Below, piece after piece: positions 4,444 through 61,165 of a stretch of DNA of 64,000 bases; the first letter of the stretch is position 1, and the number at the start of each line of letters is the position of its first letter. The translations under genes and the position numbers were made by a program. Below the pieces are notes generated by a model. That model searched no databases, was not told where the DNA came from, and saw only the letters and a program-made list of their open reading frames with translations. Location of the stretch: positions 12,679,578 to 12,743,577 of the forward strand of contig NC_087073.1 of NCBI RefSeq assembly GCF_026151205.1, in the 5' to 3' direction. Source of the stretch: Bolinopsis microptera. Taxonomy: Eukaryota > Ctenophora > Tentaculata > Lobata > Bolinopsidae.

Positions 4444-4544
4444 TGTAATCAGTTCACATAGCCATGTGTCTACGCGTACTGCGTGACGCGCTTGTTTCAT
4501 AACTACTGCAAGCGAGAGGGCTCTGGTTAGAGCAATGTAATCAG
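4444..4544 (+). mobile_element. Hairpin element family 2, copy a, with 9 bp duplication
   Basis: The element is 4453-4535 (83 bp; begins TTCACATAG, ends TTAGAGCAA). It is flanked by perfect 9 bp direct repeats TGTAATCAG at 4444-4452 and 4536-4544. It is an internally shortened form of the 119 bp copy at 59758. Confidence 0.75.
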
Positions 4545-4662
4545 TGATGTTTCCTTTTTGAACAATGATGCATGGTGCGCGCTATATCTCCCGCGAAAGC
4601 ACATTAAATTTAATTCGTATGCAATAGTTGTAAAACTTGCTTTATTTAGCACTTAGCTGACG

Positions 4663-4748
4663 TGTGTCTACTTCACATAGCCATGTGTCTACGCGGCGGT
4701 CGCGCGCAACTGCAAGCGAGAGGGCTCTGGTTAGAGCAATGTGTCTAC
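4663..4748 (+). mobile_element. Hairpin element family 2, copy b, with 9 bp duplication
   Basis: The element is 4672-4739 (68 bp), with the same ends as copy a. It is flanked by perfect 9 bp repeats TGTGTCTAC at 4663-4671 and 4740-4748. Its interior is shortened differently from copy a. Confidence 0.75.
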
Positions 4749-4847
4749 CAAAATCGAACGGGGAATCGTTTAAAATCATTTTCAAGGCATCCTAACAAAA
4801 AATTTAAATTGTGCTTTTTACAGAGAAATAAGACAGTAGCGTTTTTA

Positions 4848-5148
4848 TTTCGAGCGTTGTAGCGCGATGCAGTACTGGGCAGCGCCGCGCATCAAATAAC
4901 TCTTCTCGCAACCACAATAATTCTTTTCGCAACCACATCTACCTTTGTCATACGTTGTATGACCCGCCGCGCACGAAGTGCGCGGCTCCCCATATAGTGA
5001 AGCGACTCCCTATAGTGAAGCTCCCCCTATAGTGAAGCGACAGTGGGGGTCACCACGTGATACAAATCTACCTTCGGTAGATCGGCAAAATGCACCAATG
5101 GGCCTCACCGAGCTGCAAAGGATTGACATCGTGAATCAATTTCGAGCG
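4848..5148 (+). mobile_element. Hairpin element family 3, copy a, hosting a family 4 copy
   Basis: The element is 4857-5139 (begins TTGTAGCGCG, ends GTGAATCAA), flanked by perfect 9 bp repeats TTTCGAGCG at 4848-4856 and 5140-5148. A family 4 element (4946-5065) lies inside it. Without that insert it would be about 155 bp. Its ends are imperfect inverted repeats (TTGnnnCnCGATG). The undisturbed interior would form a hairpin ATCTACC-TTC-GGTAGAT. Confidence 0.75.
4937..5074 (+). mobile_element. Hairpin element family 4, copy a, nested in family 3
   Basis: The element is 4946-5065 (120 bp; begins TGTCATACGTTG, ends CACGTGATACAA), flanked by perfect 9 bp repeats ATCTACCTT at 4937-4945 and 5066-5074. 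The ends form imperfect terminal inverted repeats. Internal palindromes include CATACG-TTGTATG and CCGCGCAC-GAA-GTGCGCGG. A CCCTATAGTGAAGC-like unit is repeated three times inside. Confidence 0.8.
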
Positions 5149-5233
5149 TTTTTATTTTGATCATGTTTTTATTTTGAACATGTTTTTATTTTGAACATGT
5201 TTTTATTTTGAACATGTTTTTATTTTGAACATG
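5149..5233. repeat. 17 bp tandem repeat, five units
   Basis: Five head-to-tail units of TTTTTATTTTGAACATG; the first unit has one base changed. The array begins immediately after the 9 bp target duplicate of the family 3 element. Confidence 0.85.
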
Positions 5234-5344
5234 TTGATTTGTATAAGCAATAAGTGCATATTATATTGATTCTGCAAAAGCTTGATCTCGATTCACGAAG
5301 TTTGAAAGAAAATTTGTTTCACAAAAAAAAATGTTTCGCCAAAT

Positions 5345-5487
5345 TGCTCTATCCAGAGCCTTTGAACGCTACTGCAAGCGTTCACATAGCCATGTGTATA
5401 CGCGTACTGCGTGACGCGCTTGTTTCACAAGTTGACCGCCTACGGCGGTCGCGCGCTACTGCAAGTGCAAAGGCTCTGGATAGAGCA
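5345..5487 (+). mobile_element. Family 2-related element with 20 bp terminal inverted repeats
   Basis: Perfect 20 bp inverted repeats at 5345-5364 and 5468-5487 (TGCTCTATCCAGAGCCTTTG and its complement) enclose a family 2 core starting TTCACATAG at 5381. The other family 2 copies begin directly at TTCACATAG, so this may be a longer form, or a family 2 element inside a relative. No target duplication is evident. Confidence 0.55.
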
Positions 5488-5730
5488 CCCTGGGACCCCA
5501 GGCTGTTATATTTATACGCCGAATAGAGATTCGGCGGAATCATAAGTTAATCGCGCAGCCTTGACCATTGTTAATGGTCTGGCCCGGCGTGCGCTATTTC
5601 TTAGCACTTGCCATTTCGAGAAGAAAGCGGCGCGCGCTACTTCGAAGAAATTTAGACGAGTAACATCCGTCAAGCTAATTCGAAGAAATTCAGACGAGTA
5701 ACATCCGTCAAAGTGCCGCCCAGTAGCGCG
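5488..5730. repeat. Composite of family 6 and family 5 hairpin sequence
   Basis: It starts with CCTGGGACCCCAGG (family 6 left end) and finishes with two GCCGCCCAGTA words (family 6 right end). Between them are a family 5 type segment and a second direct copy of TTCGAAGAAATT-AGACGAGTAACATCCGTCAA (5640-5672 and 5680-5712). GC-rich, with no coding potential. Confidence 0.45.
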
Positions 5731-5824
5731 CCGCCCAGTAAGATCAAATTTCTTTATATACGCTAATCTCAATGCGTATAATAATATAATGTGATTACAT
5801 GTACACTATTAGTATTAATTGCAC

Positions 5825-5982
5825 GAGGCGCAATTGATTGACGATGTCAATCCGTCGAGATCGTTGCTTTGCGAAGCAGAGCTCAACGATCGACGACGAT
5901 GCGAAGCAAGAATGCGAAGCAAGAATGCTAGTTTGCGCGGCGCGTCGAAGCGGCGAAGTCCTCCAAGACACAAGAGGCGCAG
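5825..5982 (-). mobile_element. Diverged family 3 hairpin element, inverted
   Basis: The element is 5834-5973 (140 bp; begins TTGATTGACGATGTCAATCC, matching the complement of the family 3 right end; ends AAGACACAA). It is flanked by GAGGCGCAA (5825-5833) and GAGGCGCAG (5974-5982), a 9 bp duplicate with one mismatch. Open frames across it are by-products of its palindromic composition. Confidence 0.6.
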
Positions 5983-6111
5983 CCGAGTGTAATAACTGGT
6001 GTAATTTAATTGCATTATACATGCAGTTAGATTTGCGTATAACTCTACGTTTCTGATGCAAATGTTATATTATAACATTATATTATAACATTACAACATT
6101 ACAACATAATA

Positions 6112-6198
6112 AGTTGGTGCGATTATAAACTAATTCAAATAGCACTGATTATAACTTATAATCAGTGCTATTTGAATTAGTTTATAATCGCACCAACT
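6112..6198. repeat. 43 bp perfect palindrome
   Basis: Arms 6112-6154 and 6156-6198 are exact reverse complements around a single C at 6155. The sequence starts AGTTGGTGCGATTATAAAC. It could extrude as a cruciform or fold as a near-loopless hairpin. Confidence 0.9.
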
Positions 6199-6424
6199 AT
6201 TTTTTTATAAAACCAGTGCGATTATAAACTATAATTTATAGCGTTGCCTCGTGCGATTATTGTATAAATGTACACTCTGATGCGCCTCGTGCAATTAATA
6301 GTGTAAGTCATTGCATTATCAATTATACGCAGTTAGATATTAGCGTATATAATTGCATGGCATTATTTTTGCGGTTAAGTTGACATTTTGTTTTAAAGCC
6401 GTTTCTAATAACAAATAATTATTA

Positions 6425-6648
6425 ATTCAGAGTTGCCTGGGACCCGGCTTAACGGGTGATACTCGTAAAATAGTTGTTCCATATATTATACAGGACCGCG
6501 TCGACGAGTCCAACTCGGCGTGCGTCCTGGTAGGTTGTAAACCTTGAACCTACAATGGGACCCCAGTGCCCAGACTATAATGTTCATAAAATAAAGATTT
6601 AACGGAATGACAAATGACAGGCTGAGCGCCGCACAGTAAATTCAGAGT
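6425..6648 (+). mobile_element. Hairpin element family 6 hosting a family 1 copy
   Basis: The element is 6434-6639 (begins TGCCTGGGACC, ends GCACAGTAA), flanked by perfect 9 bp repeats ATTCAGAGT at 6425-6433 and 6640-6648. A family 1 copy (6449-6554, minus orientation) lies inside, bordered on both sides by TGGGACCC. Related sequence is at 23797-23873. Confidence 0.65.
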
Positions 6649-8086
6649 TGTACTCTTGACAGTAAAGAGTTGTACTCTTATTTTACGTGATATTTTACGA
6701 GTATCAGTATCACCAGTTAATAATTATTTTGCCAGATGGAAGACGTCGATGATTTTTTATCAGCATGTGACATGTTAAGCACTAAGCTTGTTTTTGAGTT
6801 TGTAGCCCTGTTCAACATATTTCTTTGCATTGCATCTTAGTTTTAACTGTTTGTTCTATGTTCTAGCTTCTAGAAACAGCTTGCTCCACGCTGTGGCGGC
6901 CATCTCGTGGTATTACTAGTACTACTAGTAAATGCCACGAGATAGCAGATAGATCCTTAGCTTAAATGAGGATCACGACGTGAGACAAGAAACAGCCAAA
7001 AGACAAACGAAGTATTCCTCGTGATAACAGCAGCTGATTTGGTCACCTGCTTTTTAATTTTGAAGATCAATGAAGTGATACATGATATGTGTTCTTCTCT
7101 TGATACACATCGTATTTTAATAACTCGGCTGCGCCTCATATTGATCCGTACTATTAATATTGAAAATGGTACTTGGTGTGTTGAGAACTGTCAAGATATA
7201 TCATATATCTTTCTCTTCCATCATGCATCAGGTCAAAGTCAGGAATCTGAACTACAAACTGGGGTTCTTATATTAGTGAATAGTGACTAAGAATGAATAT
7301 TTTTGATTTTCTTTCACGCAGTATGAACAGACCACAAAGGGTGCGTCCACAGATATTTTGACTGGAACACCGATCAATAATACATAGTTCTTTGAGCATA
7401 GTTACGATAACAGCATGCACGGGTTAAACGTCACGTTTATCAGTATACTTATAAAAAAAGAGAGCTAACCAAATACGAAGACAAGATCCGGCTTTATGTC
7501 GAGAGATAAAGACTACTATGAGTATGGGCTATAATGGAAGCCGATTACTTAGTTTTGCTATGATATACTTTATTTTGATAATGTAAGTGGTTTCTTTTCA
7601 TATTACATATGATCTTTAAAAGTTTGATTGTTAATACAAGTTTTAGTTTATTTCAATTTAACCTTGGTATCATTTGTTCATCTCTCACTGATTTCTCAGG
7701 ATCCTCTTGATCACCCTGATACATACAGCAAGAGGACTTTAGTATATTAATTTTCGTATGAACAAAATATAAAGTACTGGATATGACTAAAACAATCCGA
7801 AATCAAATCAAATAAATAATTAATATTACATTTGAAACTGTTAATTTCACGTCTAAATCTAAAATAATAACGGTAACAATTGCTCGTCTGCATTCTTGAT
7901 TCTGCACGGAATAATATCCGAAGTATTCGAAGAAAATAGTTTCTTGATTTATCGTGGGATATCGAATATTTTTTCGACCAAATATTCAATTTTTTCCAAC
8001 AAGTCGTAGTAAAGTAAAACCATCCTCCCATCCTTATTTCGAAAAAAAAATGCATATCGAGTCCAATAACTATAAGTATAACACGT
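6649..8086. other. Gene-free stretch
   Basis: I see no gene here. A small palindrome lies at about 6902-6945 (ATCTCGTGG to CCACGAGAT arms). TTTATT at 7647-7652 would read AATAAA on the minus strand and could serve the gene whose stop is at 8087. The short open frames look like chance. Confidence 0.4.
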
Positions 8087-8338
8087 TTAACCTCTAGTTC
8101 TGTTAGAGCCACTCGACCAAAAGCATGTCTTAAAGAACAGTTTAACACTGTTAAAGGATCTGGAGAGCGTGTCTGATATCCCCTCAGCAACACTGTCATA
8201 AAACTCGGTGATTTTAGCTCCGAGACTGCCATTAGGACGCTTTCTGTGAGTCTCCTGCTGTCTGAAGTATTTCTCGTTGTCTTCAGAGACATCGGAGAGT
8301 GTGGTGGGTGCACCAAATCTCGAGTTGTCACGTTCCGC
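8087..8338 (-). CDS. Exon 5 (last) of the five-exon gene
   Basis: 83 codons and TAA after acceptor CTGTCTCGTTTCAG. The correct frame begins AERDNSRFGAP and includes GAKITEFYDSVAEGISDTL, a likely amphipathic helix, ending SSGSNRTRG. A longer open frame over the same bases on the same strand is not the one that fits the splice phase. Confidence 0.75.
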   Translation of the reverse strand, partial: AERDNSRFGAPTTLSDVSEDNEKYFRQQETHRKRPNGSLGAKITEFYDSVAEGISDTLSRSFNSVKLFFKTCFWSSGSNRTRG

Positions 8339-11300: not shown

Positions 11301-14300
11301 ACTATGAGGAGGACTGATGGGGAGGAGAAGGAGGATCAGGAGGAGAAATGAGGATGAGGAGGAGGAGAAGAAGAAGGAGAAGGAGAAGGAGGAGGACTGG
11401 GAGTAGGACTGAGGAGGAGAAGGGGATTGAGGAGGAAGGTGAGGAGGACTGAGGAGAAGGACGAGGAGTCAGGAAGAGGACTGAAGAGTGAAGAGGACTG
11501 AGGAGGAGAAGGACTCAGGAGGAGGAAGACTTAGGAGGAGGAGGAGGAGGACATCTAAATGTTTTGTCTGTTTTTGTCCGTTTTTGTCCGCCCTACTTTT
11601 TGTCCGTTTTGAAAATACAGGGTACCGAACGGACACAAAACATGATCCCCCAGCCAAGCATGTGTTACGATACAAATGTACTTGACTATACATTTAAGGT
11701 GCAGTGTACTAGTGATATTATGGTATGTTTAAAGACCGGACCACAAAATATAACCCGGTACCTAGTGTTGTACTAATACATAATAACAAGTAACAGGGAT
11801 AAAATTAATGAGCAGAAACAATCGATCTCACGTCAAGAGGCCAAAGCACTCGGGTCTGGGAGTACATGACAACTCCAACTAGTAGTGAGCATACTAGCCC
11901 CTGCAGTGGAAAAACACATAAAACATACTATTGGAATGTCCAATTAGTTCGTTTTCTCATAACAATATAGCATATGTAGGGGTTCTGGTTGAATTATATC
12001 ACTTCTGAGAGGTTTTAGAGATCGATTCTCTAAAATTTCTCAATTTTCCGATTTTTCCGATTTTTCCGATTCCGATTTTGGCCTCATCAACCCTCATATC
12101 GGACATCGGGTTGGACCCCCCCCCCCCCTTTTGTAAAACGCTAGTTAATACTGCTTGGGACTAATCATTAAGTGGTGCCATTATTTGGAAGTACTTGACG
12201 ACAAATCCCTACATTGTTATATATTTCGCTCTTAAAAGCGCATAACAGCAGGGTTCATCCCACTTCAGTTAAGCACAAAATGTTTGTCAAGTTGGTGCCT
12301 GTGTGGTATTATTCCCCACTTTTAGAATAAAAAATGTACACACTACACCCACAAAGTCATGACCTAGCTCCAAACCAACAGCTCCAAACTTAGCTGTAAG
12401 TGTAAAGTATTTCTGCTAAAAGTTCACTAAAGGATGATTTGAAGGATGATCATCATTCCACCTTTCTAAAATGCAAATAAACTTTACAGAAATGAATTAC
12501 AATTAGATTTACATAAGACCAAAACATCTACGACGAAGCAATATCACGATATAATAAAAACTGTAAAATCATAAATGATTGGGTCTTGGGACCTTTTCTT
12601 GGGTTTACTTATCTTGACTACTGAAATTGGTATTTAGGATCACCTGGTGCCGTGAAGCTGGATCTCAATTTGGCAACGACCTGCCATTCATATATAATAG
12701 TTATAGTGTCTTTTATCGATAGTTTACATTTACAGGAGACAGTCCACTCCATCCACTTTATTTTTTGTTTTAATATTGTTGTAATTTTAAATATAGTCTA
12801 GCTAATAAAAACAGTTTTAGTTTTCTATAGTTTAACATCTCATCATTTGATGTCACTACGTAGAAAACATAACACGATGGATTTGCTCACGTTTCTTTCT
12901 TAAAGTTCGTACTTCGGCAAATCCCCCACCCCTTTTTTAAAGAAAAAGCCATATAAGGGCTTATAAAAAGTTTAAGTTTGCTTTGATTACAGGTAGAAAA
13001 TTTGTAAGCCATATACAGCTAATTCAAGTGGATAAATATCAATAATACATAATTCCCCTCTAATTCCCATGAAATTCCCATGGAAACAATGTTTCCAAAA
13101 TTTTTCCAAATATGAGGAATCATAATATCGTTGATAGAATGCTATACTTGTACTAGAGGAATTTAATTCTCCCTTTGAATCAATCAAGCTACCTTACTCG
13201 GGATTATTATGACCGGGATAAAGTGGTGGGTTTAGGGTAATTTCGCCATATTTTTCCCGAACCATATTTTAACCGGTCGTTAATAAACCCGTCGTAATAA
13301 TCCCGAGTAAGGTAGATGATTTGTTGTAAATACTGAGATCAAACTATCAATTTACAGGCTATCGTCAAACATGTTGCAAGGCGTCATCTTCAGTGACATA
13401 AGCCTAAATAAACTTAAGGTACCATACTGAACAGTTTTACCCATAGTTGGTATAATTCGTCAGATCGGTGCCTGTAGATTTCAATTACTTGTAAATTTGT
13501 AACAACCACTGTTATATTTGACGTCTTATAACTGATTCACAGGCCTCTCCGACTGATTATACTGCTGTCGTAAAACAAATTATAATCTCAGTTCTCACTC
13601 CCGCCAAACAGTAACTGGCACCCAGCATGTGGTTACTATCATGGTTACCATGGTTACTATCATGGTTGCCATGGTTACTATCACGGAGATATAAAAGCAA
13701 GTATACTTGTACTACTGTCTTCCATCTTCCAGTTTTTATACCTAATATCTAGGCCGCGTATTTAATGTTCCGATCGGATATTACAGAGTTGTCATGTGAA
13801 CTCCATCCTCGAACTAATCCATTCCTATAAAATGTTGGAGTATAGTAGTTCGCTGTTTATTAGTCTCATGATGAAATACTGATAGTTGGATAATGTCCGG
13901 TTGAAAGATTCTAAGTCAATCAAATTCCATCCATGGATCACATCACCAATTAACCCATTAGGGACGATAGGGTCGTTTTTATGACCCACCTTTTCTAGAC
14001 GAAAAACCAAATTACTAAACGCTATAACGAATCTATAGCATATATACTCAAAATTTATCGGGCTTCATTATATGTAGCCCAATAAATTTTGAGCATATAT
14101 GCTATAGATTCGTTATAGCGTTTAGTAATTTGGTTTTTCGTCTAGAAAAGGTGGGTCATAAAAACGACCCTATCGTCCCTAATGGGTTAATCGTCACTGA
14201 TTGGTTGACGTGATCCGATCACCGTGTGATCCCTCATCTCAAGGGTCGTTACTTTCGTGATTATTCGTGACCCAGGTATACTTTCAAATACAGATATTGA

Positions 14301-17300
14301 TGACGAGACCAAGATATTTATAGAGCAGGGGACTCGTTTGATTAATGAACATGCTTGTGATAAGAGAGTCCATTTTGGTACTTCTTATGAAGTTTTCAAT
14401 CTTAAGAACTGTAGTCCTACATCTTTGAAGGAGTAACAGTATGAACAGAACATATTTTTCAGAACTATTAGATCTTCTGAAATTTATCGGTTGACCATGG
14501 TTCCTTGCATAGTCAAAGCTGTTTGGCAATGTATTGTTTTTGTATATTAGAGCTTTAGCCACAGGTAGGTTGGTCTGCACGGTTGCAATTACTCCTTATA
14601 TATTATTAAGTCTTTCATGATCACAATTTTCTTTAATAACTTGAATTATTTTATGTAGACTACTGATGATATTAAGCAGTGAGGCCCAGACTTGATCCGA
14701 CTTAAACATCTAAACAATCCAATATTATTAGTCTGAACAGATGGTATAAATTCATCAAGTGAATTTGTTGTCTGGACTCTGTTACCTTTTCTATCCGTGC
14801 TTCTACGACGTTGATTTTTTGTTCATTAGAACTTTTTCATATAACTTCTATTAACTTCATAAGGACCGAATTCATTTACCTAATTTTATCTAATCAATGA
14901 ATATATTGAACAACACAGCTTGGTTCTGAGCTGAGGATGTTTATTCGATTTAATTCGTCGAGTCCGCGTGATTCTCTAGGTACCACTTGTTCAATGGATT
15001 TATGAATTTATGTATATAACTGAGTTTATGTAAAGTTAGTATGTGATTTTTGAAGACTAAAGAGGCGTTATTAATTATTATGTATTTTCATTTTATGAAA
15101 TCTTGTAGAAAATGTTTTATAATCCAATTTGTCAAGCACCGCTCCAAATTTGCACTTCGATGTATTTCAATAAATGGTTTTGCACAGCCATTGCCCTTCT
15201 TAGACAAAGTTAAGGGGACATACACCAAAAGCTTTTATGCCCTGGCCCTGCTGTTAACGTCATATTAAGAAAGTATACATAAAAACAATAAGATTTGATT
15301 CATTAAAAATTATTTTTGAGGACCCGCACTTTCGAAAAAATAAATATTTTCTTTTTCGAAATTTTTGGAAATTTTGAGAAGTCTGTCACTGTAATACCGA
15401 TATTTCGGTCATTTTAAAAGTCTTTTGGCTGATTTTGTTACTGAAAATTACTTACAATCCGTAAAAGAAGCCCTTCAAAGGATTATATAATTGAACAATA
15501 AATGACGAAGTTACAGACCAAACAAGGTCGAGAGAAGGAAAATTGAAATTTTTGTAAAAATCAAAGTTGTATATTTTACCATTCACCCAGGTCATAAGAT
15601 ATCGCTTCAAAAATTCTTGTGAGTGTAGCTGATGATCATATCCAACTTTTTGGAACAGGATTTCTCTCAATTTTGAGTTTTAAGGTATGAAATGTGGCCT
15701 CAAACGACTTAGTAAAATTCATCGTAAAAAGGGCCAAACATGGCAGATTTAAGGCTTAAAATGCCTATAACTCAAAAAGTATCAGTTTTTTTGAAATAAT
15801 TTTTACAGAATCGTAATCAGCTTGAGAAGAAGAATCTTTTAGTACCAAATAGGTGATTTTAGAATACAAATTGTCTTAAATAATTTTCTAGCTCGAACAC
15901 AAGGGTCCCCCCTTGTATAAATTTTGTACAAATTGTACACATTTTTTTACAAAATTTCTGTCTTTAACTATTATAAATTTGGTACTAAAAGATTCGTCTT
16001 ACCAAGCTGATTACGATCCTGTAAAAATTATTTCAAAAAAACTGATACTTTTTGAGTTATAGGCATTTTAAGCCTTAAATCTGCCATGTTTGGCCCTTTT
16101 TACGATGAATTTAACTAAGTCGTTTGAGGCCACATTTCATACCTTAAAACTCAAAATTGAGAGAAATCCTGTTCCAAAAAGTTGGATATGATCATCAGCT
16201 ACACTCACAAGAATTTTTGAAGCGATATCTGCTGACCCGGGTGATTGGTGAAATGTACAACTTTAGAAGTAGGCAAAAATTTCAATTTTTATTTTTCGAC
16301 CTTGTTTGGTCTGTAACTTCGTCATTTATTGTTCAATTATATAATCCTTTCAGGGATTTCTTGTACGGATTGTAAGTAATCTTCAGTAACAAAATCAGCC
16401 AAAAGACTTTTAAAATGACCGAAATATCGGTATTACAGTGACAGACTTCTCAAAATTTCCAAAAATTTCGAAAAAGAAAATATCTATTTTTTCGAAACTG
16501 CGGGTCCTCAAAAATAATTTTTAATGTATCAGATCTTATTTTTTTTATGTATACTTTCTTAATATGACTTTAACAGCAGGGCCAGGGCATAAAAGCTTTT
16601 GGTGTATGTCCCCTTAAAGTACTAGTGTTAGATCTTTAAGCCATAGCCACCTACGTACAGTTCAATTATATGTCGAAATGTGGCTGAGAAATGACTTCCA
16701 AGTGGTTAAACTTAAAGAGCTATATCTTTATACAATTCTCGAGGTATAAATACTCCCTATTTTACCCATAATTTTAAGTGCTTTATACTTATAGAAAGGA
16801 AATGTTGTAAGGTTTCGAGACCATCAACGTTCAGTACTACCTAATCTTACGTTATTTGACCGGAAATTGCGTGAACGGACATAATTTTGAACCGACATTT
16901 AAATAAACGCTCGAAGGCATTCATTTAATGTATATAATTTAACTAATAACGACCTTATCGGACTTTATCCGAACGGACATTAAAATGAACGCTAGGGCCA
17001 CCTGCGTCCAATTAATGTCTGTTCAAATGAAGTCCGATAAGGTACGTTCTTTACAATACCTTCTTTTTAGACTTGTTCCGAGATTTAGATTTTCTTTTCC
17101 GTTCCTCGTCGCTAGAAGAGTCCAAACTTTCGTTCGGTGGACGGTACATTGTTGTCGATTTGCGGTATGGTCCAGTTTCTACCCAGCTTTCATTTCCGGG
17201 CTCCTCGCGTTGCTCGGACTCCTGAGCAGAAGATAATGTGTTAATGCGAGAAAGAAAACGGCCGCGTTAAGTACCGTACGTGATTCTTCAACACACCTGG

Positions 17301-20300: not shown

Positions 20301-23300
20301 ATAATTTCTGGAGTAGTACATCGTGGATTGAGACTGAGAGTATTTTCAACCCATATTTTGGTTCTTCTAAATTTAGCTCTGCCTAAATTTGAAATAAAAT
20401 AATTCCAGTTACAATGAAGTAAGAACACCTTTGAGTGGTTACAAACCTCAAAGCAGTGAAATCTCTTCAGACGTTATCGTTCTACTTCTAGAATGTTCTA
20501 GAATGTTCTTTATAATTTAAATCCAGTATTTGTTCCGGTTATCAAGTATGAGGGCTTTGTCATTTTATATGTTTTATATTTGTCGTATTATATTATATCT
20601 GTCATATTATATCGCAATTCGCAACCCTAACAATTTAAACCTTGCCATAAAGATCAGATCTATTAAAAATAAAATGGACCAAAGAACAGGTTGACACGCT
20701 TGTCTCTTTGAGATTCATGACATTTGAGATGGATTCAAATTAAAATGACGACATTGCTAACTGAAGACCTTATATCGATATAATACCCGTTCTTACAACC
20801 ACTGGGTATGTCTTTATGGCTTATCCATTATTCTAGTACCACTGCAGCCCTTGTGAATGGTGCTCCTGCATTGCTCATTGTAGGCTGCAGTTTCCAGCCA
20901 CATTACCAGATTGAGTGCAAAAATACGAATTCGATATCTCAAGGAATGGGTCGTAGGTAGATAGCTGTCACACTCCACTGCAGAGTGCAGGTGGTGCCCT
21001 TTCTAACTGATGCTATAAGTTATAACCGCCTTCAAGTTGGAAAAAGACCTGCAAAATATTGAAAAGATAACGTTATGGTTATAACGTAGTAGAAAAGATG
21101 ACGAACGACAGAAACAAGAAAGGTAAGGGAGAAATGATGTAAAATCTACACGTGCGAATTGAGCCGCGCAATATACATAAACAAATTTACCAGCGCTATC
21201 TATCATTTCCTATCGTTTGTTGCGAGTTGCGTGTTATTATGTATATTGCTTGTGATGCCAATGTTACATCCAAATCGTACGATTCCACTATAAATACCTC
21301 TAAGTGTTAGTGTTAGTGTTACCTTAAGGCCAATAAATTTGGTTTTAGTCACATTTTTTCGACTTTTCGAGACTATATTCCATTCCATTTAATTGATTTT
21401 TCCATTATTAATATTTAGCTACATTTTTTCGATTTCGCACATATATAGCAGCGGTTTTAAAGGCTAAAATCTAGAAGGGGTCGTTTCACATAATTACTTT
21501 AATGAGTTAAACTAGATGCAGATACTGCCTGATTGGAAAAGGAAGTAAGAGAAAGTGAAAGCATAAAAGCATTGGATTACACGTGTAATAGTCAAAATAG
21601 TTTAGCAGTAGGAACGGTGATGTCATTATATTAATTATTAACAATGTAAGCTCGATAATATTCATGTCATATATGCTCTACTAAAATTTTGGTCTGCTTT
21701 CAAATTAGTCGCCGAAAAATTTAGTCGCAACAAATTTCGGTTTACAACAATTTGGTTTACAACAATTTTAGTCCCAATTTTGACTAAATTTATGGTAGAC
21801 TGAATTTCTCGTTCTTAAGGTATCTCACTCCATGCTCCACCAGTTTTAAGGGGGCAAACACCAAAAATGTCCAGACCAAATGACCTCATAGGCAGTTCAG
21901 TGACCTTCTAGCGCACCGTTTCCACACCAAAAAAAATTATTTTGAGAATACCCATTTTTGTAATCGACCATTTCCTGGTTAAGAGTGCAATTTTCGGAAC
22001 AAATTATTTTGTGCAGTTGAGACGCTATAAGTTAATCATTTCTTGCGGTATCGGGTTGAAATTTTGCTCGCCGTTTATTCACATCTATTTCGAGGTGTGT
22101 GCAAAATCTTGATATCGTATCTAAAAACTAAAAGGCTGGTGTGTTATGAATTTTTAAAGTCAAAAAGCTAAAATTGTCCTTTTCAGGCTTATTTTAACAA
22201 AAAGTCAGTCAGGGAAGATCGGATTATTTGATGCTTGACATCAAATTGTTCTCTGAATTCTGGCGCAGAAAATGGGAGAAAATGTGATTTTTTGGCTTTG
22301 CAGATAAAAAATCACATTTTCTCCCATAACTTCAAAGGGAAGCATTTTAGGGTGTTTTGTTGTTCATAACTCATATATAAATGTGATAGGTGCGGTTATT
22401 TTGCACCCTTCAAAAAGTCACTAGCACATTCCTATCAAAATTTTGGAAAAATCAGTAAATATTAAAAACGAAAAATGTGCCTAAATTTGTTGTTTGGCTT
22501 TGAGGTCCAATAGATCAGAAGGTGAATGAGTAAAAACATTTTTGAGGGCATCAAAAACTGCGCCAGAATTCAGAGAACAATTTGATGTCAAGCATCAAAT
22601 AATCCGATCTTCCCTGACTGACTTTTTGTTAAAATAAGCCTGAAAAGGACAATTTTAGCTTTTTGACTTTAAAAATTCATAACACACCAGCCTTTTTAGA
22701 TACGATATCAAGATTTTGCACACACCTTGAAATAGATGTGAATAAACGGCGAGCAAAATTTCAACCCGATACCGCAAGAAATGATTAACTTATAGCGTCT
22801 CAACCACAAAATAATTTGTTCCGAAAATTGCACTCTTAACCAGGAAATGGTCGATTACAAAAATGGGTATTCTCAAAATAATTTTTTTTGGTGTGGAAAC
22901 GGTGCGCTAGAAGGTCACTGAACTGCCTATGAGGTCATTTGGTCTGGACGGCACAAACCACTGTTTTGGTGTATGCCCCCTTAATTGTTCTTATCATTTA
23001 CGGTCGCTGATGATGTCTACACCTTGATTACGGTAGCGCCGGTGCCTAGTATAGAAAAAGACAGTAGAAGATTCGTTGACATGTTGCAGCTTCTTACAAG
23101 TTACAGCAAACTCAGCTTTTGGTAAAAACTGTCCAATTCCAATACTTTTCGATTTTCGAAGCATTTCTAAGTAATTTTATTGATAACCCAACAATTGAGT
23201 TACAAAACGTTGACTCCACTTCATCCTTTAGCACGGTTACTTGAGAGAAAAGAGTTATATTTAAGTTCGGCAGTTGGTGTTTTCAGTAGGAATAAGGTCT

Positions 23301-26300
23301 ATTGTAAAGCGAGCATTGAGTATTGCCTAATGGAGTTGACGTCGCTTACTTCTCATAAAACTATTAAGCCTCTATTAAGCCTCTATTAAGCTTCTATTGC
23401 CTATACTGCCTATTGTAGGGCTTGACCGAAAGTAGGATCACGAGGCAGTAAAACCAATGTCACGTGAAAGTAAGAATATGAGAGAATATATTTGCAAATG
23501 CTGCATAAACCCAGACACATGTATTCATCTTAAGTGATATGCATACCTATGAATCAAAGGACGCGTTTACTCCTTGACCCAGATTTGCAGTTCGAGGCTC
23601 GAGCAATAATTAAGCTAAAAATCCCGTTATAGTAAATTTCTTTGACCACTCAGACAGGAGTAATTTTCCCTGCTGCTACTTAAACTTTGACATGCGTTTA
23701 GACTTTCAGTTTCAATTGTCCTCGATTTGGCTCTTAAATCACGTCTCAATAGAGGGCAGCGCAATTTTTACCGTACATTGCACTATGATAATTTACTGGG
23801 CGGCGCTCAGCCTGTCATTCCGCCCAATCTCTATGTTTATGAACATATTATAGCCTGGGGTCCCCACTCCCCAGGTAATATTATAATATGTTCTGACTTA
23901 TGAGACATCCTTATGCGGATCAAACATATCTTGGATGCGCATAAGGATGCGCATAAGGATGCGCCAACATAAAGTAATACATAACCCATAAATCTCCTAA
24001 TCCTGTCTTCTGAGATCTCTCAATTATGGAAATTCAGATCTTTATCTTCTCTCGCACCTCTTTATCATTGTTCAGTTTAAATCTGTGCCATATTTAGAGG
24101 CACTCATTGTTACAGCGTCCTTTCATTTCGTCGTTTCGCTTTATATAGTTCCATATTTTGTCTATTATATAAGTTATTATTTAGAGACTCTCCAATTTGT
24201 AAATTTCCGTTCGTTGCAATTTTCAGTATCTTCTTTCACACGCAGATTTAATTGTGCAGATTCACTCTGTGCCATCTTAAGAGGCACTCATTCTCACAGC
24301 GTCCTTTCATTTCATACATTCTTTTGATCCATTTCCATCTTAGTCTAATAGGCTATACAAGTTTTCATTTAATCCATTCGCCGTATAGCTCACCTTCTAG
24401 CACCAGTCCACTTTAGTTATATCGCGGAACATCCTTATTTCATCCCTAGTTCACACTTCACAGGTTCATGTTCACCGTAACAGAGCACCAGAGCCTATAA
24501 TTATGTTCTACTAAAACTGGATACCGGCCAAATTGCCAGCCAATTATGTTCACTTCGCTTGTTTAACTGCCTCCATTATTTTTCAGTTCACCTTATCAAC
24601 TTATCCAACTTTTAACCTGCCACACGACACGATCATAGCGTATAGTTTTATAATAGGAAAGTTTATTTATCAACATTTACCTCCAGATTTCCTGTGGTCC
24701 GAAAAATTCATTCATAAAGCACTTCTCTAATTACCTATCAAGGAGAACTAATTCATCATGTACCCAGCACCACGGCAATTACACCTCAACACTTGCACAG
24801 TTAAGCCACATTTTAGCCACTTTCCTATCATCTAATTCGATTGGGCGACATCTGTCCGACAGCGACATCTGTCCGACAGCCGAATTGGGGATTTCGGACA
24901 GATGTCGCTGTCGGACAGGAGTCGTTTTTGGCGACATCTGTCCGAATTTCGGATCATATTGTAATTTCGGTTCACATTCGTATTTCACAAGCTCACGGGT
25001 AATCTCGTGACGTTGCTCCCATTGTTCGAATGCTGATGTGATGCATTGAGATCTGATCCATCGATACGTGGTTGACTATTTGAGGACAGGATTGTGCTAG
25101 CCGTACACTGTCGATCACATCACAGGACACAGCCTACATGAGTACATATAGGACAGCGGCCATATGGAGATCAGTTATCGCAATCCACAAAATCAACCAA
25201 TCTTCAGTAAACAGACCCAGATCTGCAGCAAACAGACCCTAGAGATCTGGAAACGCTATCCATTCCTGCAAACTACATCATCTCTACCGACAACAGTCCA
25301 ATGATGCTCTGGGACTCTGGAGTTTGGATGGGACGAACTGACTCGTCGATCTTTCCTCTGGGGGACTCCTAAGAACGCAGATCATATGGCGGACGCGGAG
25401 CATTGGGTAGTCGACTGTACCTTCAAATCCGCACCTAAATTCTTCCATCAGCTCTTCACAGTCCACGGACTGTTCCCTGATGGCTGGCACCTCCCCCTCT
25501 TCTATAGACTGATTATTCCTGGAAAATCGACGACCCTCTACCGCAACATGTTCGAGGAGATAAACACCTGGGCTTCTTGGGCCTTGGGGCTACCAACCAC
25601 AATCCATCCTCATGGACTACGAGCTCGCCATTCACAACGCAGTTTCCTCATGCCTGCCTGCCTAGTTTGGCCAAAAATAAACTAGTAGTAAACTATGGCT
25701 CAGATCATATCTCAAATTGGCAATGTTACGTATACAAATTTGCAAGTAACAGTTCAGATCATGTCTCTAATTGGAAATGTGTCGTATTGAAATCAGATCA
25801 CAATTTATCCATAATTTTCTTTTCACCTTATCAACTTATTCAACCTTTAAGTTTTACAGAACTCTAAATGCTTAATGAACACACTTGTAGGTACCACCCG
25901 TATTCACACTCAGAACTGAGTTTAGTCATTTTCCGATACGAGATTGGAGATATAAACAAACATACAAACAAGTTATTATTTAATCCGTTTTCCCGTACAC
26001 CACACCATCTACTCATCTAGAAACAGTTCACTGTTAGTTCATTCTCGGACTGCCCTTTTTTTCACTCCCAGTTCACAGTTTCATGGCACCACGCCTCTAC
26101 ATTGAACTTTCTTTAAGCGTGATCTTCTTTAATCCACATTTACCTCGAGGAGACTTAATTAATTTTGTAGCATATTACTCCTCCACATCTATTGATTAAA
26201 ATATATTATATTTAAGTATTCTTGCTCGTCTTCCATTCCACCTTCAGTCCTTACCTGCACATGTTTACTTCTTTCTCAAGGAGAATTAAGTCATTAGAAA

Positions 26301-50900: not shown

Positions 50901-51014
50901 GAGAGATTGAATGTTTTTGGGCGTCACCACCGTCGAGCTCTCCCTTCTATCTACGACCACCAGCGAAGCTTGCAATTGCACCTTTACAATTATACCAACA
51001 TGCACATCATCACA
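47985..51014. other. Intergenic stretch
   Basis: No gene that I can support. Short open frames such as 48927-49193 lack any recognisable motif. Confidence 0.35.
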
Positions 51015-51551: not shown

Positions 51552-51665
51552 CGGTATCCTTTACCTGGAGGGTTACCACACCGAGAGGCAGGCAGAGCAT
51601 CTTCATGCTATGAGCTATCCTTTTGTGGGCCAACCAGGTCCAGCCTCTCTTAAAAAATAATAAAC
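51552..51665 (+). mobile_element. LINE 3' end fragment
   Basis: GTGGGCCAACCAGGTCCAGC then CTCTCTTAAAAAATAATAA matches the 3' end of the LINE at 61250-62525 read on its own strand (GTGGGCCAACCAGGCCCAGC then CTCTCTAAAAA). About 90 bp is shared, including the A-rich tail. Confidence 0.7.
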
Positions 51666-53006
51666 CCACACCCACACCCTCACCCCCACCAGTGTTCACT
51701 TAAGGTTTAGAACTTTTAATTTGATGCCTAAAATTTTATTCATGGTAAGAATGGCTTGAATCAAAGCCATCATAATTTATTATTTTTAGCTTCATTTATA
51801 ACGTTTCTGTGAGCTAGTGAAACGACCGCCTTTTAGGAAATAGGAACGGTCAACGTTTCAATTATTTATTACAACATCATAAATAGTATATTCAAATAGT
51901 TTCTAGGCAAGAATGACTTCTAGTATTACCTGAGTTTTCTATGACCCCTTTGTCACGATTAAGTTTTTGTTAGGCGGCTGGCGAGGGTTCCTGTCATCAT
52001 TGATGGCTCTATCGCAGATCCCCAGTCGCACATTCTGAGCAGTAATATAATACTGAGCACTTGACAGCAGTAAAAGTGCGACTTGTAATGACGGTGGTCC
52101 ACTTGACCCCTAAGTTTTAAATTTTTACAAGGCAGCTGATCTGACACGATTTTAATTCCGTTTAGTACTGTTAAATTTCGGCATCTCTGATATCGTGTCT
52201 CTCGTTTTTTGTTATTGGAACTATTTGATAGGTAGATCAGCATGCAGTATTTTATTTTTTCTATTCTATGACACTGACAGTTTATGGAAACTATTGTTAG
52301 GAAATTACAATAAATTATCATGAAATGTGTGGATGCTTTTCCAGGATTTTCAATTAATGCTACTGAATTGGAATGTCACGTGAACAAGTCATAATAACGA
52401 TATTGACTATTGATTAATTGAGAATTGCTCAGTATGCTATTGCTGCACATGAGGGATCAATGCAGCGGCCGTATGTTGGACTTAAGATCTTAAAGAATTT
52501 CTGTTATGATCGTTTTTTGTGCTTTTAGTTTTACAAAGAAAGCTATTACAATGCGTTTTAGATAAGATATGCAGTCAGTTGAACATTTTTAAACTTCCAA
52601 ACATTCCGGAATCATGTGTCGAAGGTCAATTGAAGTTAACAATGAGGCTAGTATGCATGATAACAATTAGAGTTAGCAATTCTGAATTTGGACGCTATTG
52701 TTTATCTCAAATATTTGTATTTCTGCACGTTCGAACAGAAATAGGTTAAACACAGTCTCTTTTAGTTTACCAATAAAGTTTGCCATGTCGGCTTTACTAT
52801 TTTACTGCTACAACCTATAATAGAATATTTTTCTTCAGAATTGTATTAAAATTGAACAATGTTCAAAATCGAAAAACAAATACAGAAAATTTAGACTCAA
52901 CTTTTTGATCCAGCATTTTCTGAAGACATCACTTTTATTGTGTGGCCCATGCCCCATATTTTTATTCAAATATCGGAAATCAACTTGCTAATTTCTGTTA
53001 TTATTA
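51666..53006. other. Upstream region of the GPCR gene
   Basis: No exon that I can support. A likely 3' splice site (CTAATTTCTGTTATTATTAG, ending at 53007) sits two bases before the GPCR start codon, so a 5' untranslated exon probably lies in or beyond this stretch. Confidence 0.4.
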
Positions 53007-53009
53007 GCC

Positions 53010-55343: not shown

Positions 55344-55351
55344 GCCACCTT

Positions 55352-55363
55352 AATAAAAATAAA
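55352..55363 (+). terminator. Polyadenylation signals of the GPCR gene
   Basis: Two adjacent AATAAA hexamers at 55352 and 55358, 9-15 bases past the stop codon, implying a very short 3' untranslated region. Confidence 0.7.
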
Positions 55364-56860
55364 TATATTTTATACACTTAGTTATTAATTTTAGTCTTAG
55401 TATCGGCTGCTTAGTGCTCCCCCACACCACAACAGATTATGTACTAAGTTGTACTAATTTAAGTGATTGTGACTTAAATGCAAACAAACTGGTTAATCGA
55501 TTCAACTTTGCATTATAATATTCGAATTGCAACGTGCAATGACTTCCTCGAAATTTGGCTTTCAGCCATCGAAAAATCTATAATTAACTTTAATTTTTAT
55601 CCACTTATTAACTTTTTGCAGCTATTTTTAGTGTTAATTAGATGTCGCTTGTAAATATGATCAACTTTATTCCATTTGAGCTGGCGGATTGGTCCGATCA
55701 AGGGATTTACATTACGCTTAATGATTATTATTTAGGATGATTCATTCCTAATAAATATCATCCGCTCGAATATGTTTTAATTATAGTGGTATGGTATGCT
55801 GTAATCTATTTCATCTTTATGTGAAATATCTTATTACTACGTATAGTACTGAACGATTTACGAAGCACGTTAAGAATTTAATTAGTTGACTTGATCACTT
55901 TCTCATTTAGATTGGATCTGTGAGGTCAGAGGTGCCGACTGGAAATGAATATCTACTAGCAGTTCACATCTATAAAAGTCGCATTAGGATAATATCCATA
56001 GTTTTACTCCTTTTTAAGCAAATTGGTCTTACGTCTTGAACTAATCAGTAAATTTCGAAAGCGAAATAAACATTGCAAATTCTACACTCTTGATCAAGAG
56101 AAACTTTGAGAATATATTTCTTTTCCATTCTTATAGAATTTACTTGATACTTCCTTTTATTATGATGATATGATATTTGTACGGCACGAGGTTTGACGTG
56201 GGTGAATTTAACAGGAAAGTTCAAGTAAGGTAAAGGCGATCTGGTATTCTCTTTTTCAATATATCTCTAGATATACAAGTTCCTAATGGTCATGAATAGT
56301 AAAATGATCGTGTTACAAATACATAGGTTAACTACTGATAAACATTTATATATTTGCTCTCCGTTCTTTCAGCTCATTACTCATACATTTACTAAGGGGA
56401 ATCACTCTATTAATATTATGTATCGATGAAAATGTATGTACATGTAATTGTATAACTGATTACTATTAGTATTAATATTATATACCATTCAAGATTTTTA
56501 CTAAATTTAATTTTGTCACTGTTGACTTTATTTTCAATGATAAGCAGTGGCGCAACTTAAGGTAAAGGAGGGTTGTTTTGGAATCAGCATTGAAAAATAT
56601 ATCGAGTCAAGCTACTTTAATACCTGGCGAGTGATTTAGTGGGACAGACTTTAATAAAGTTCGTCAAAATTGTCCCACATTCGAACATTATTTGCTCTGG
56701 CCGATTGTTAGTTTCGTGTTTTTTCTATAATAACCCAGAAAAAAATGGGGAAAATTGGCCAAGGAATGAAATTTGTACATTGTAGGTCCCGAAATTTGGA
56801 TGCTAGGCTCTGCTTCTATATCGGGAATTAACTGAGGATTTCAGGCTTCAGTGTTTATAA
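55364..56860. other. Intergenic stretch
   Basis: AT-rich; no gene or repeat that I can support. Confidence 0.35.
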
Positions 56861-57039
56861 TGTGGTGGACATCACGTGATAGTCAAACGTTTAGAGCGAT
56901 TAATTAACCATCATCCGATTTTTACGGTTAGGGTTAAGGTTCTATTAAACAGTTTTGTTCGTAATATAACGTTTAGGTTTGGTGCTATTGATTCTAGATA
57001 TAGTGTGTTGGCTATCAATACTAATAATCTCAAGATGTG

Positions 57040-57057
57040 TGTCTGTCTGTCTGTCTG
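57040..57057. repeat. TGTC microsatellite
   Basis: GTGTGTCTGTCTGTCTGTCTG, a short tetranucleotide run. Confidence 0.7.
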
Positions 57058-57579
57058 TGGGTAATTTCCGAACAGCTTAATCAAGAAAACAGTAAGAGTT
57101 ACGGGGCTGGTTTTTTTCGGTATAGTGCCGACAAAACGCTGACCAAGCCAAATGATTAAGGTTTTTAAAATCTTAACACTCTCTCTCACACACTCTCTCT
57201 CTCCCCATTTACAGCTCCCCTAATTACTGCTTTGTACATAATTAGGTAATTTGGCAGTGGAGCCTATTACGTATCACTATTAGTATTGGATACGTATTAA
57301 GTGATGGGCGCTCAGAATTAAATTTACTCTAATGCGGTCGGTTTCAACTGAGCCAGTTTATAGAATTATACTTTTTCACTACAATTTTAACTTTTGCACA
57401 GTTTATACTTTTGCAATTCAAGTTGCAATTCATTCAGTTGAATTTCAACTGCGATAGTGAAGTCCCGGCCGTAGGCACGGGTTACACTAGTAAAATAAAT
57501 GTGATTAATCTTATAAAGCGAACGGTAGAGGCTTTTATAATTAAGAATACTACAATCTACAATAGAAAGTTAGTTTATT

Positions 57580-58749
57580 TACTCGAGCGTGCTAAATCAC
57601 TCTATAGTCGATCTTCGAGATTGTTCTAAAAGGGCCCCCGACAGTTGAAACCAACATCATTCGATGTATTTTCGGACGCTGATTCTGAATCACCCCCATG
57701 GCATAGGGTTAAAATACTGACGAGATATTGGCGAAAAACTGTCTCGATCACGTGATATGACCGTATAAGGAAGTTAGTCTAATTTCTCGTTAGGGTTAGG
57801 GTTTCAGCATATGCTCTTGTTAAGGATTGGGTTAGGGTTTCCAATAGTCGTTCAGGACCAGCTAGAGAACGGGTTGAAAAAGTCACGTGACAGTCGAGTG
57901 TAGAGTGATTAATCATCATCCTTATTTACTACATCATTACTTTCCATTTCCAAACTCTTGGCACTTGGTGCGGTGAAATGAACTGCATGTGTTGGGGCTC
58001 ACTGCATGTGGTGGGGCTCACTGCATGTGGCGTGGTGCCTTGTTTAGACTAGACTTAGAGGGTATGATTAATGATATTATTGGTGATAAAGAAAGCGCCC
58101 CGCGACAGGATGACTATTGAAAGTGATGGTTATAGTTTGTAGGGCTATAATTATGGTATCAGATGATCAGACGGGTAAAATTTACGGACAAGTTCGGTGA
58201 GAAACGTTTATCTACAAGTACATATAATAATGTATGTAATAAAAAAGTAAATGCCTTCACTGGGCCTTGGCAATGGCAGTGTGTTTGTAGGTTTATTCAA
58301 CGGACTTTAACTTGGACGGACATTAAATTAACGGAATTTATTTGAACGGACATTAAAATGAACGCTAGGGCCTCCAGTGTTCAAGTAATGTCCAAATAAG
58401 GTCCGATAAGGTATACATATTAATCATAGATATCGACAACAGAATCCTATACTTATACATTATAGTCTTGAAATTCTGTTACCACCGCCCCTCGAGCGTG
58501 CTAAATCACTCTACAGGGCCCCCGACCGTATTAGAGTTATAAGGAAGTTAGTCTAATTTCTCGTTAGGGTTAGCCTTAGTCATAGTGCTTAGGGTTTCAG
58601 CATATGCTTTTGTTAAGGCATAAGGATTGGGTTATATAGGGTTAGGGTTGGGATCAGATTATATTAGAGGGTTAGAGTTTCGAATAGTCGTTCAGGAAAT
58701 GCTAGAGAACGGGTTGAAAAAGTCACGTGACAGTCGAGTGTAGAGTGAT
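57580..58749 (+). repeat. Duplicated non-coding segment with TTAGGG words
   Basis: 57581-57910 and 58490-58749 are diverged direct copies: CTCGAGCGTGCTAAATCACT, AGGAAGTTAGTCTAATTTCT, TTTCAGCATATGCT and GTCACGTGACAGTCGAGTGT occur in the same order in both. GGGTTAGGGTT words resemble animal telomere repeats but are few and scattered. The first copy continues into AATCATCATCC without interruption; the second is split there by a family 1 element. Confidence 0.7.
58300..58412. mobile_element. MITE related to 16952-17043
   Basis: Shares GAACGGACATTAAAATGAAC, GCTAGGGCC and the right tip GTCCGATAAGGT. The left terminal repeat is worn. Confidence 0.5.
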
Positions 58750-58852
58750 TGTAGGTTTACAACCTACCAGGACGCGCGCCGAGTTGGACTCTTCGACGGT
58801 CCTAATATATGGAACAAATATTTTACGAGTATCACCCGTTAAGTAAAGTAAT
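58741..58852 (+). mobile_element. Hairpin element family 1, copy a
   Basis: The element is 58750-58842 (93 bp; begins TGTAGGTTTACAACC, ends CACCCGTTAA). Flanks TAGAGTGAT (58741-58749) and TAAAGTAAT (58844-58852) agree at 7 of 9 bases. The paralogous unfilled site at 57900-57915 (GTAGAGTGATTAATCATC) shows directly what was there before insertion. Confidence 0.7.
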
Positions 58853-59181
58853 TAATCATCATCCCATTTAATTAAATTCTAACTCACAATTTGATTGATT
58901 TTTGCAACCTTCCAAAAAGTTTGAAATCTTGGACCTGATTTTTAGACGATATTTAGAAGCCAGTCAATTTTAAAATCGACTTAAAATGTTTAAAAGACCT
59001 ACAGCAACATTTTATTCTGACAATCTCTTTCAAATGATCTTTAAATATATTTTGAAAGTTTCAGGGTGATAAATTTTAAAGTTCGATGTTCAGTGCGCGC
59101 AATTGAAAATCGCTCACACAACACACAAAACATGAACAATTACTCATTAACAGCTGATAAATATTACTTCCCTTTATGCAT

Positions 59182-59268
59182 ATTATATATTGTCAATTGT
59201 TAATGGACTATCCCAGCGCGCGCTACTTCGAAGAAATTTAGACGAGTAACATCCGTCAAATTATATAC
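59182..59268 (+). mobile_element. Hairpin element family 5
   Basis: The element is 59191-59259 (69 bp; begins TGTCAATTGTTAATGG, ends AACATCCGTCAA), flanked by ATTATATAT and ATTATATAC, a 9 bp duplicate with one mismatch. The terminal inverted repeats share TGxCxxxTGTTA. Related sequence occurs twice at 5640-5712. Confidence 0.6.
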
Positions 59269-59513
59269 AACTAAAAAGTCAATTTCGACCCCCAATTATC
59301 TAAAAGTAAAAAGGAGTTTAATAATAAAAAACGCTGGATTGAGCAAATTATTGATTATTACGAATTTTTATTGTATTATTTTAATTTTCGTATATTTCAT
59401 GACTTAAATTGTAAAACTTATTGTTCCTTCTTGTAATTCAGAGTTTGGTGAGCGTAGATTCTCAGTAGTGGCTCCAAAGATATACAATTGTCTGCCAGCT
59501 GCCTGTTACCATC

Positions 59514-59652
59514 ACCTCAGCTTGTCATACGTTGTATGACCCGCCGCGCACGAGTGCGCGGCTCCCCTGTATCGTCAGGACGTCATAGTGAAACCCCTGT
59601 ATCGTCATAGTGAAACGACCGTGGGGGTCGCAACGTGATACAAACCTCAGTT
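59514..59652 (+). mobile_element. Hairpin element family 4, copy b
   Basis: The element is 59523-59643 (121 bp), flanked by ACCTCAGCT and ACCTCAGTT (one mismatch). It has the same ends and internal palindromes as 4946-5065. CCCCTGTATCGTCATAGTGA-like units are repeated inside. Confidence 0.75.
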
Positions 59653-59661
59653 CAATCTTTG

Positions 59662-59900
59662 GAATCTTTTTGTAGGTTTACAACCTACCAGAACGCGCGC
59701 CGAGTTGGACTCCTCGACGGTCCTAATATATGGAACAAATATTTTACGAGTATCACCTTCACATAGCCATGTGTCTACGCGTACTGCGTGACGCGCTTGT
59801 TTCACAAGTAAATAGATTCTTTGCCGCCTTCGGCGGTCGCGCGCTACTGCAAGCGAAAGGGCTCTGGTTAGAGCAAAGTATCACCCGTTAAGAATCTTTT
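59662..59900 (+). mobile_element. Hairpin element family 1, copy b, hosting family 2
   Basis: The element is 59671-59891, flanked by perfect 9 bp repeats GAATCTTTT (59662-59670 and 59892-59900). A family 2 element lies inside. Without it and its duplicate the family 1 copy would be 93 bp, the same length as copy a. Confidence 0.85.
59749..59885 (+). mobile_element. Hairpin element family 2, copy c, nested in family 1
   Basis: The element is 59758-59876 (119 bp, the longest clean copy), flanked by perfect 9 bp repeats AGTATCACC (59749-59757 and 59877-59885). Internal hairpins are ACGCG-TACTG-CGTGACGCG, GCCGCC-TTC-GGCGG and GCTCT-GGTT-AGAGC. Confidence 0.85.
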
Positions 59901-59998
59901 AAAGCTTTTCTAAAAACGTACCTTTTCAAACTGTCCCCAGATGAACTTGAAAATCTTAAACGATAACTATTCTGGTCATATTTATAATTCGATCTTTG

Positions 59999-60139
59999 CA
60001 TAATATATTGTAGCGCGATGCACTACTGGGCCGCGCCGCGCACCTTCTCGCAACCACACGTATGCAGATCTCGCAACCACGTATGCAGATCGGCGAGATG
60101 CGAAGGTCGAAGGATTGACATCGTGAATCAACATAATAT
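59999..60139 (+). mobile_element. Hairpin element family 3, copy b
   Basis: The element is 60008-60130 (123 bp; begins TTGTAGCGCGATG, ends CATCGTGAATCAA), flanked by perfect 9 bp repeats CATAATATA. A TCGCAACCACACGTATGCAG unit is repeated inside. Confidence 0.85.

Positions 60140-61108: not shown

Positions 61109-61165
<57 letters not shown>

Follow-up and report, generated by a model that had tools for sequence, protein, structure and literature searches.

A 64,000-nt stretch of the ctenophore Bolinopsis microptera genome (NC_087073.1, positions 12,679,578 to 12,743,577, forward strand; hereafter the window) carries small, non-coding elements, mostly 60–135 bp long, that a first-pass annotation had described as eleven insertions from six families, all bordered by 9-bp direct repeats. 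We find that they are real insertions and distinguish seven families, A to G, with G additional. The direct-repeat borders stood up, while the repeats proved to be 8 or 9 bp long and in some cases imperfect. A common TT..AA boundary, a terminal dyad, mutual nesting, and 8–9 bp duplications support a related group of transposon insertions, and we consider it likely that the elements are non-autonomous DNA transposons of one architectural group, resembling miniature inverted-repeat transposable elements (MITEs).

Evidence for insertion

The sample consisted of the window and 27 loci (L002–L028; L001 was dropped, being part of the window), which were the best matches to one family A copy, so the sample favors clusters. 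We ran a blind scan, using no family sequence, for left-maximal exact repeats of 7–11 bp around segments of 50–320 bp, excluding low-complexity repeats and repeats occurring more than six times per locus. With exact 9-bp flanking repeats, 51 segments had TT..AA borders, versus 6 for the next inverted dinucleotides. TT..AA counts were 3 at 10 bp (highest other inverted dinucleotide 4) and 34 at 7 bp, which is background (highest 35). At 8 bp there were 44 versus 24 for the next, an excess made up partly of 9-bp cases shifted by one base. The scan table had 81 rows, 44 of which had a GC fraction <0.40 and were kept off the main table (11 of these, at 9 bp, were shown separately). Scan matches were sorted into families A–G by tip sequence.

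Elements with both tips numbered 140 (A 46, B 23, C 10, D 16, E 21, F 10, G 14), and 79 of these had an exact 8- or 9-bp duplication. Among 77 unique perfect sites, 23 lay within an element of another family, so that the intact target is known independently. A paralogous empty site was present among the tandem units of L010, where the same C element measured 121 bp in two units but 215 bp in the two that follow; the 94-bp difference is accounted for by a D element of 85 bp and 9 further bp, with the cut placed only within 4 bases as the tips resemble the target. The blind TT..AA excess, the duplications, the nesting, and this empty site establish the elements as insertions, and small elements with direct-repeat borders are confirmed far above chance where they had been annotated. 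The 77 empty target sites had no palindromic symmetry around the duplication, and palindromic target choice was rejected on that basis.

Duplication length

Families A and B have 9-bp duplications, C and F chiefly 8-bp ones, and D, E, and G a mixture of both. With ends set at TT..AA, unique perfect sites at 9/8 bp numbered 27/1 in A, 14/2 in B, 5/2 in G, 5/4 in E, 2/4 in D, 1/4 in F, and 0/6 in C. A and B together had 41 sites at 9 bp and 3 at 8 bp, versus 1 and 10 for C and F (Fisher p = 1e-7). In an independent set of 20 C loci chosen by exact tip alone, both ends were found in 12, with an exact 8-bp duplication in seven and an exact 9-bp duplication in one; two of the seven had identical flanks and are probably one duplicated locus.

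The uniform cut size previously proposed across families does not survive this comparison, as length varies by family. The repeats ATCTACCTT, GAATCTTTT, and ATTCAGAGT had been read as 9-bp duplications and become 8-mers when ends are placed at TT..AA. Likewise, TT starts were borne out, but the reported TG starts borrow one T from a true TT..AA border. Duplications of variable length had been named as the outcome that would count against the proposal, and the variation we found is solely 8 versus 9.

Shared shape of the ends

Of the 14 consensus ends in the seven families, 11 share one layout, in which a TT is followed, always at the same position, by a dyad of 17 bp with a stem of 7 bp and a loop of 3. 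This 7-3-7 dyad starts two bases inside the element, and no fewer than five of its seven stem positions pair in those 11 ends. The paired fraction over all 14 ends was 0.69 at the dyad register versus 0.16–0.29 at other offsets with a loop of 3, and shuffled ends reached at most 0.41 (2000 shuffles). A 5-base loop placed one base further out paired 59%, which is the same dyad read shorter.

Pairing was conserved across differing sequences. Over 12 dyad ends (the 11 plus a B variant), all selected for having the dyad, pairing was kept in 87% of cells, and six of the seven stem positions showed at least three standard pair types. When the 3' letters were re-dealt, pairing averaged 40% and reached 87% in 0 of 10,000 trials. 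Nine less related ends gave 87% versus 37%. Some copies within families also had double changes that restore pairing.

The left and right ends were identical at 8 of 17 positions in B, 9 in C, 6 in D, 8 in E, and 12 in F (shuffled mean 4.2, 95% point 7). B2 and G2 were identical at 16/17, B and G sharing a right end. The D2 and F2 right ends were identical at 13/17, above the 6/17 between D's own two ends, a pattern that an exchange of ends among families would give.

Interior and composition

CpG content was 4.6–12.5 per 100 bp in the families versus 2.97 outside them. The observed/expected CpG ratio was 1.19–1.81 in six families but 0.81 in E, against a background of 0.80, so the earlier description of the elements as CpG-rich holds by counts, and by ratio everywhere except in E. 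A GCGCG or CGCGC core was found in 61–100% of copies per family, above dinucleotide shuffles in each, though narrowly in G (0.75 vs 0.57). The motif CGCGCTAC was common to A, B, and F, in at least half of the copies of each. The claim that families share no interior was consequently too strong, given CGCGCTAC in three families and the GCGCG core in all (weak in G). Folding z-scores for one representative each were −2.7 (A), −0.5 (B), −3.8 (C), −2.2 (D), −3.0 (E), −1.9 (F), and −5.2 (G); by this measure the representatives of six families (−5.2 to −1.9) are hairpin-packed, as annotated, and that of B is not. Median divergence within family A was 1.2%, a low value biased by the choice of loci as matches to one A copy.

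Elements in the window

The window contained five perfect 9-bp duplications (two single A elements, a nested A, and two B) and four perfect 8-bp duplications (C, E, F, and D). Its elements are as follows, with coordinates in window positions.

3839..3934, minus strand, family D element, tips D2/D1, no duplication found
4444..4544, plus strand, family A element (4453–4535), 9-bp duplication TGTAATCAG on each side
4663..4748, plus strand, family A element (4672–4739), 9-bp duplication TGTGTCTAC
4848..5148, plus strand, family B element (4857–5139) split by a C element, 9-bp duplication TTTCGAGCG
4937..5073, plus strand, family C element (4945–5065) inside B, 8-bp duplication ATCTACCT
5344..5487, no strand assigned, composite resembling A, with A2, A1, and A2-like tips and no duplication
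5561..5711, plus strand, family F element (5561–5673) whose 38-bp tail recurs up to 5711, no perfect duplication
5834..5966, minus strand, family G element, no duplication found
6425..6647, plus strand, family E element (6433–6639) split by a D element, 8-bp duplication ATTCAGAG
6449..6555, minus strand, family D element inside E, no duplication found
23793..23866, minus strand, family E fragment, only the E2 tip recognized, no duplication found
58749..58842, plus strand, family D element, imperfect 9-bp duplication (7/9)
59182..59267, plus strand, family F element (59190–59259), 8-bp duplication ATTATATA
59522..59643, plus strand, family C element, imperfect 8-bp duplication (7/8)
59662..59899, plus strand, family D element (59670–59891) split by an A element, 8-bp duplication GAATCTTT
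59749..59885, plus strand, family A element (59758–59876) inside D, 9-bp duplication AGTATCACC
59999..60140, plus strand, family B element (60008–60131), 9-bp duplication CATAATATA

Searches of the window returned no Rfam match at the gathering score and no tRNA. Elsewhere in the window, long inverted repeats with 94–100% complementarity at 13949–14191, 15210–16617, and 21869–22949 are probably elements of the fold-back type. A GCGACATCTGTCCGACA repeat at 24845–24880 has a motif identical to the ends of Mutator-like elements (MULEs) in L030 and L031. The region 61109–63145 contains a 355-codon minus-strand open frame (61462–62529) that appears RNase H-like by eye and is flanked by inverted poly-G/poly-C tracts.

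Abundance and clustering

We counted exact tips in the 264.65-Mb assembly with the reversed tip as control, which excludes mutated tips and includes some tips without a partner (as for 8 of 20 loci in the independent C set). There were 2,054 tips for C, 1,383 for D, and 441 for A, with reversed controls of 0 for each, and 4,026 exact B/G core tips with a reversed control of 42. Tip-variant counts made with the F1 and F2 patterns were not clean, since the loose F2 pattern apparently caught D2 copies and F1 caught some F2 copies.

Exact tips clustered 20- to 36-fold near one another. Around A copies, other-family tips had a density of 3.8 per kb in the first 250 bp and of 0.1–0.2 per kb at 3–5 kb (19 loci, L010 excluded). 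In the first 4.5 Mb of contig C1, 19 of 47 C tips lay within 1 kb of a B/G tip, versus a mean of 1.5 and a maximum of 7 under random placement. Nested sites made up 23/77 (30%); elements covered 21% of the sequence within 1 kb of sites, 6.7% of the whole sample, and 2.9% of the window.

Element order varied among most clusters, and L010 and L013 included local duplications. L010:775–5823 is a tandem array of ~1.2-kb units in which the first A copy is flanked by CTATCTAAT twice and the last by GTCAACAGT twice. Intermediate A copies mix the two, as unequal recombination between two A copies would give.

Search for a transposase

All 131 MULE candidates and all 63 IS1595/Merlin candidates in the genome were scored, giving 88 and 58 domain matches, respectively; hAT domain matches numbered at least 150 (150 of 365 candidates scored). 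KDZ and P-element RNase H searches each gave 0 matches, and control genomes were equally silent, so this is no proof of absence. We sampled 18 loci from eight lineages: MULE loci L029–L032 and L037–L040 (four lineages), and Merlin loci L033–L036 and L041–L046. None of the 18 had a TT-dyad pair with an 8- or 9-bp duplication, a test that can miss cases as several loci are too short for both ends. Alignments reached the locus edge in L037, L039, and L043. Longer tip patterns found two stray tips in 67 kb of these loci (D1 in L041, E2 in L043), and shorter patterns found a few three-mismatch matches, which we took as chance. In L033–L036, GGTCCATGGACC palindromes recurred close to the GG ends of the Merlin elements, so that this genome puts palindromes near transposon ends to another use as well.

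Longer copies with the same tips that encode a transposase had been proposed as a check, and none were found in the window, L002–L036, or the 18 MULE/Merlin loci. In the window and L002–L036, 12 of 68 dyad-ended rows exceeded 300 bp. Nine of these were set aside: one was a nested copy in L004, seven belonged to the tandem array of L010, and one came from the duplicated locus L013. The other three (L012, L015, and L028) passed the weakest threshold alone and were taken as chance. A viral origin was rejected, since exact searches of viral contigs with 24-mers from the A and C tips returned nothing.

Proposed mechanism

Each copy would run from TT to AA, most ends having a palindrome just inside the TT (7-bp stem and 3-bp loop, or 5-4-5 in A) and a CpG-rich GCGCG core between them. 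A transposase supplied in trans would make a staggered target cut of 8 or 9 bp, the element would be joined to the cut target, and gap repair would leave the duplication. Fixed-length duplications, precise tips, and variable interiors are typical products of a DDE-type transposase acting in trans on cut-and-paste transposons. These features, with duplications fixed at 8–9 bp and conserved tips, are all present here and suggest that such an enzyme may be responsible. The conservation of the dyad suggests that ends may be recognized through it, as an extruded hairpin or a symmetric-dimer site, instead of through matching inverted repeats, and the clustering suggests that elements may land preferentially in or near existing copies (homing).

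The 8/9 split suggests that there may be more than one enzyme. One machinery had been proposed to move all families; length differs between families, so a single fixed cut fails, although a flexible single enzyme, or a set of related ones, would fit. The families may share one machinery, and they may form a new superfamily.

Several observations weigh against a group of transposons with dyad-recognized ends. Both A ends have a 5-4-5 stem-loop where the dyad would lie, the G left end lacks a dyad (2/7 pairs), and the 12 ends of the pairing test were chosen for possessing one. Many B copies have a fixed C-C stem mismatch, so perfect pairing is unnecessary. Weak inverted-repeat similarity is present in four of the five families compared (B, C, E, and F), and with 8–12 of 17 positions identical, weak inverted-repeat recognition is compatible with these ends. 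Template-switch repair can perfect palindromes without selection. Selection could have conserved the ends as a hairpin or as a symmetric protein site, and palindrome-perfecting template-switch repair is compatible with their conservation as well. In addition, 61 of 140 paired copies lacked an exact duplication, 8 of 20 loci in the independent C set had no recognizable right end, and no transposase or autonomous copy was found in the loci sampled. Nesting at 30% is only a modest excess over the 21% neighborhood coverage, though far above the window's 2.9%, so landing near copies is clearer than landing inside them.

Alternative origins

The elements could be non-autonomous Mutator-like derivatives without clear terminal inverted repeats (TIRs), made by an 8–11 bp cut, whose palindromes are ordinary transposase-dimer sites. 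MULEs make 8–11 bp duplications, some lack TIRs, with 9 bp in Curupira (PMC6446971), and the 88 MULE domain matches place candidate enzymes in this genome. Non-TIR 9-bp MULEs are the strongest conventional home. Set against this, 0 of 8 MULE loci (four lineages) had a TT-dyad pair with a duplication, though these loci of 3.3–4.2 kb may miss ends, and the single MULE lineage with readable ends starts GGG. We regard a Mutator-like origin as a serious possibility, but not one we favor.

A new superfamily, whose enzyme would read the terminal 7-3-7 dyad beside TT by shape, make a conventional 8–9 bp staggered cut, and home to existing copies, is an idea we hold tentatively and with some doubt; the same idea has CpG-rich elements perhaps seeding GC-rich, methylation-sensitive loop-anchor motifs in ctenophores. 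The first-pass suggestion of an undescribed group agrees with ends shared by shape and not by sequence and with the lack of a match at the 18 MULE/Merlin loci, but non-TIR 9-bp MULEs are known, eight lineages out of many were sampled, and no transposase for the elements was identified among them.

We think it improbable that two or more unrelated machineries move families that merely look alike. The two duplication-length classes, the different stem-loop geometry of A, and the little sequence shared by many ends would fit such an origin, but the offset and loop are identical in 11/14 ends, D2/F2 and B2/G2 match at 13/17 and 16/17, and the families nest mutually.

Derivation from Merlin (IS1595) elements would fit the duplication length of 8 or 9 bp and the 58 IS1595-domain matches, but Merlin ends start GG (PMC8101967), as they do in the lineages read in this genome, whereas our elements start TT, so Merlin membership fails and we give this origin very little weight. 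Inserted RNA copies with structured ends, similar to short interspersed nuclear elements, would likewise be hairpin-rich, tRNA-sized, and non-coding, but duplications of target-primed retroposons are variable, whereas here they are fixed at 8–9 bp with both ends precise and no poly-A tail seen, which makes this origin highly unlikely. hAT transposons are not known to make duplications of lengths other than 8 bp, and on this comparison of length alone the 9-bp duplications of A and B depart from the rule.

Relation to known systems and significance

The elements share with MITEs a short, non-coding form, high copy number, precise ends, and a fixed duplication length (8 or 9 bp by family here), but differ in stem-loop ends with little mutual match, a size of mostly 60–135 bp, and strong self-clustering. 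Mitochondrial GC-rich hairpin elements (double-hairpin elements and GC clusters) are also very small, GC-rich, hairpin-forming, and mobile, but they are organellar, whereas ours are chromosomal with fixed 8–9 bp duplications. IS200/IS605 and REP elements have ends recognized as hairpins and are not known to make a target duplication, unlike the 8–9 bp found here.

Non-TIR Mutator-like elements (VANDAL and Curupira) share 9-bp (8–11) duplications without clear TIRs (PMC6446971), but here no MULE gene is linked and the TT-dyad tip is not among the features described in the parts of that source on these elements. Merlin/IS1595 elements share 8- or 9-bp duplications and differ in their GG starts and TIRs of at least 24 bp (PMC8101967), compared with TT and weak end similarity here. 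Introners are also small, and some families have 3–9 bp duplications with or without TIRs (PMC9860276); the main text of that source does not mention ctenophores. Among the matches listed in a literature search (titles and abstract openings), no such ctenophore elements were described, though absence from print is not established.

In the related ctenophore Mnemiopsis, the anchors of chromatin loops carry a GC-rich motif containing two CpGs, which CTEP1/CTEP2 bind when it is unmethylated, and DNA-transposon insertions occur in >90% of looped promoters (PMC12221973). The text of that source contains neither GCGC nor CGCG as a letter string. A link between our elements and the loop-anchor motif is only a suggestion. 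In this ctenophore genome our elements occur in large numbers, nest within one another, and are for the most part CpG-rich. The usual definition of a cut-and-paste transposon rests on inverted sequence that matches at its two ends, whereas here ends of unlike sequence have in common a stem-loop set at a constant distance from the cut, and this shared end shape hints at an unusual form of transposon-end recognition.

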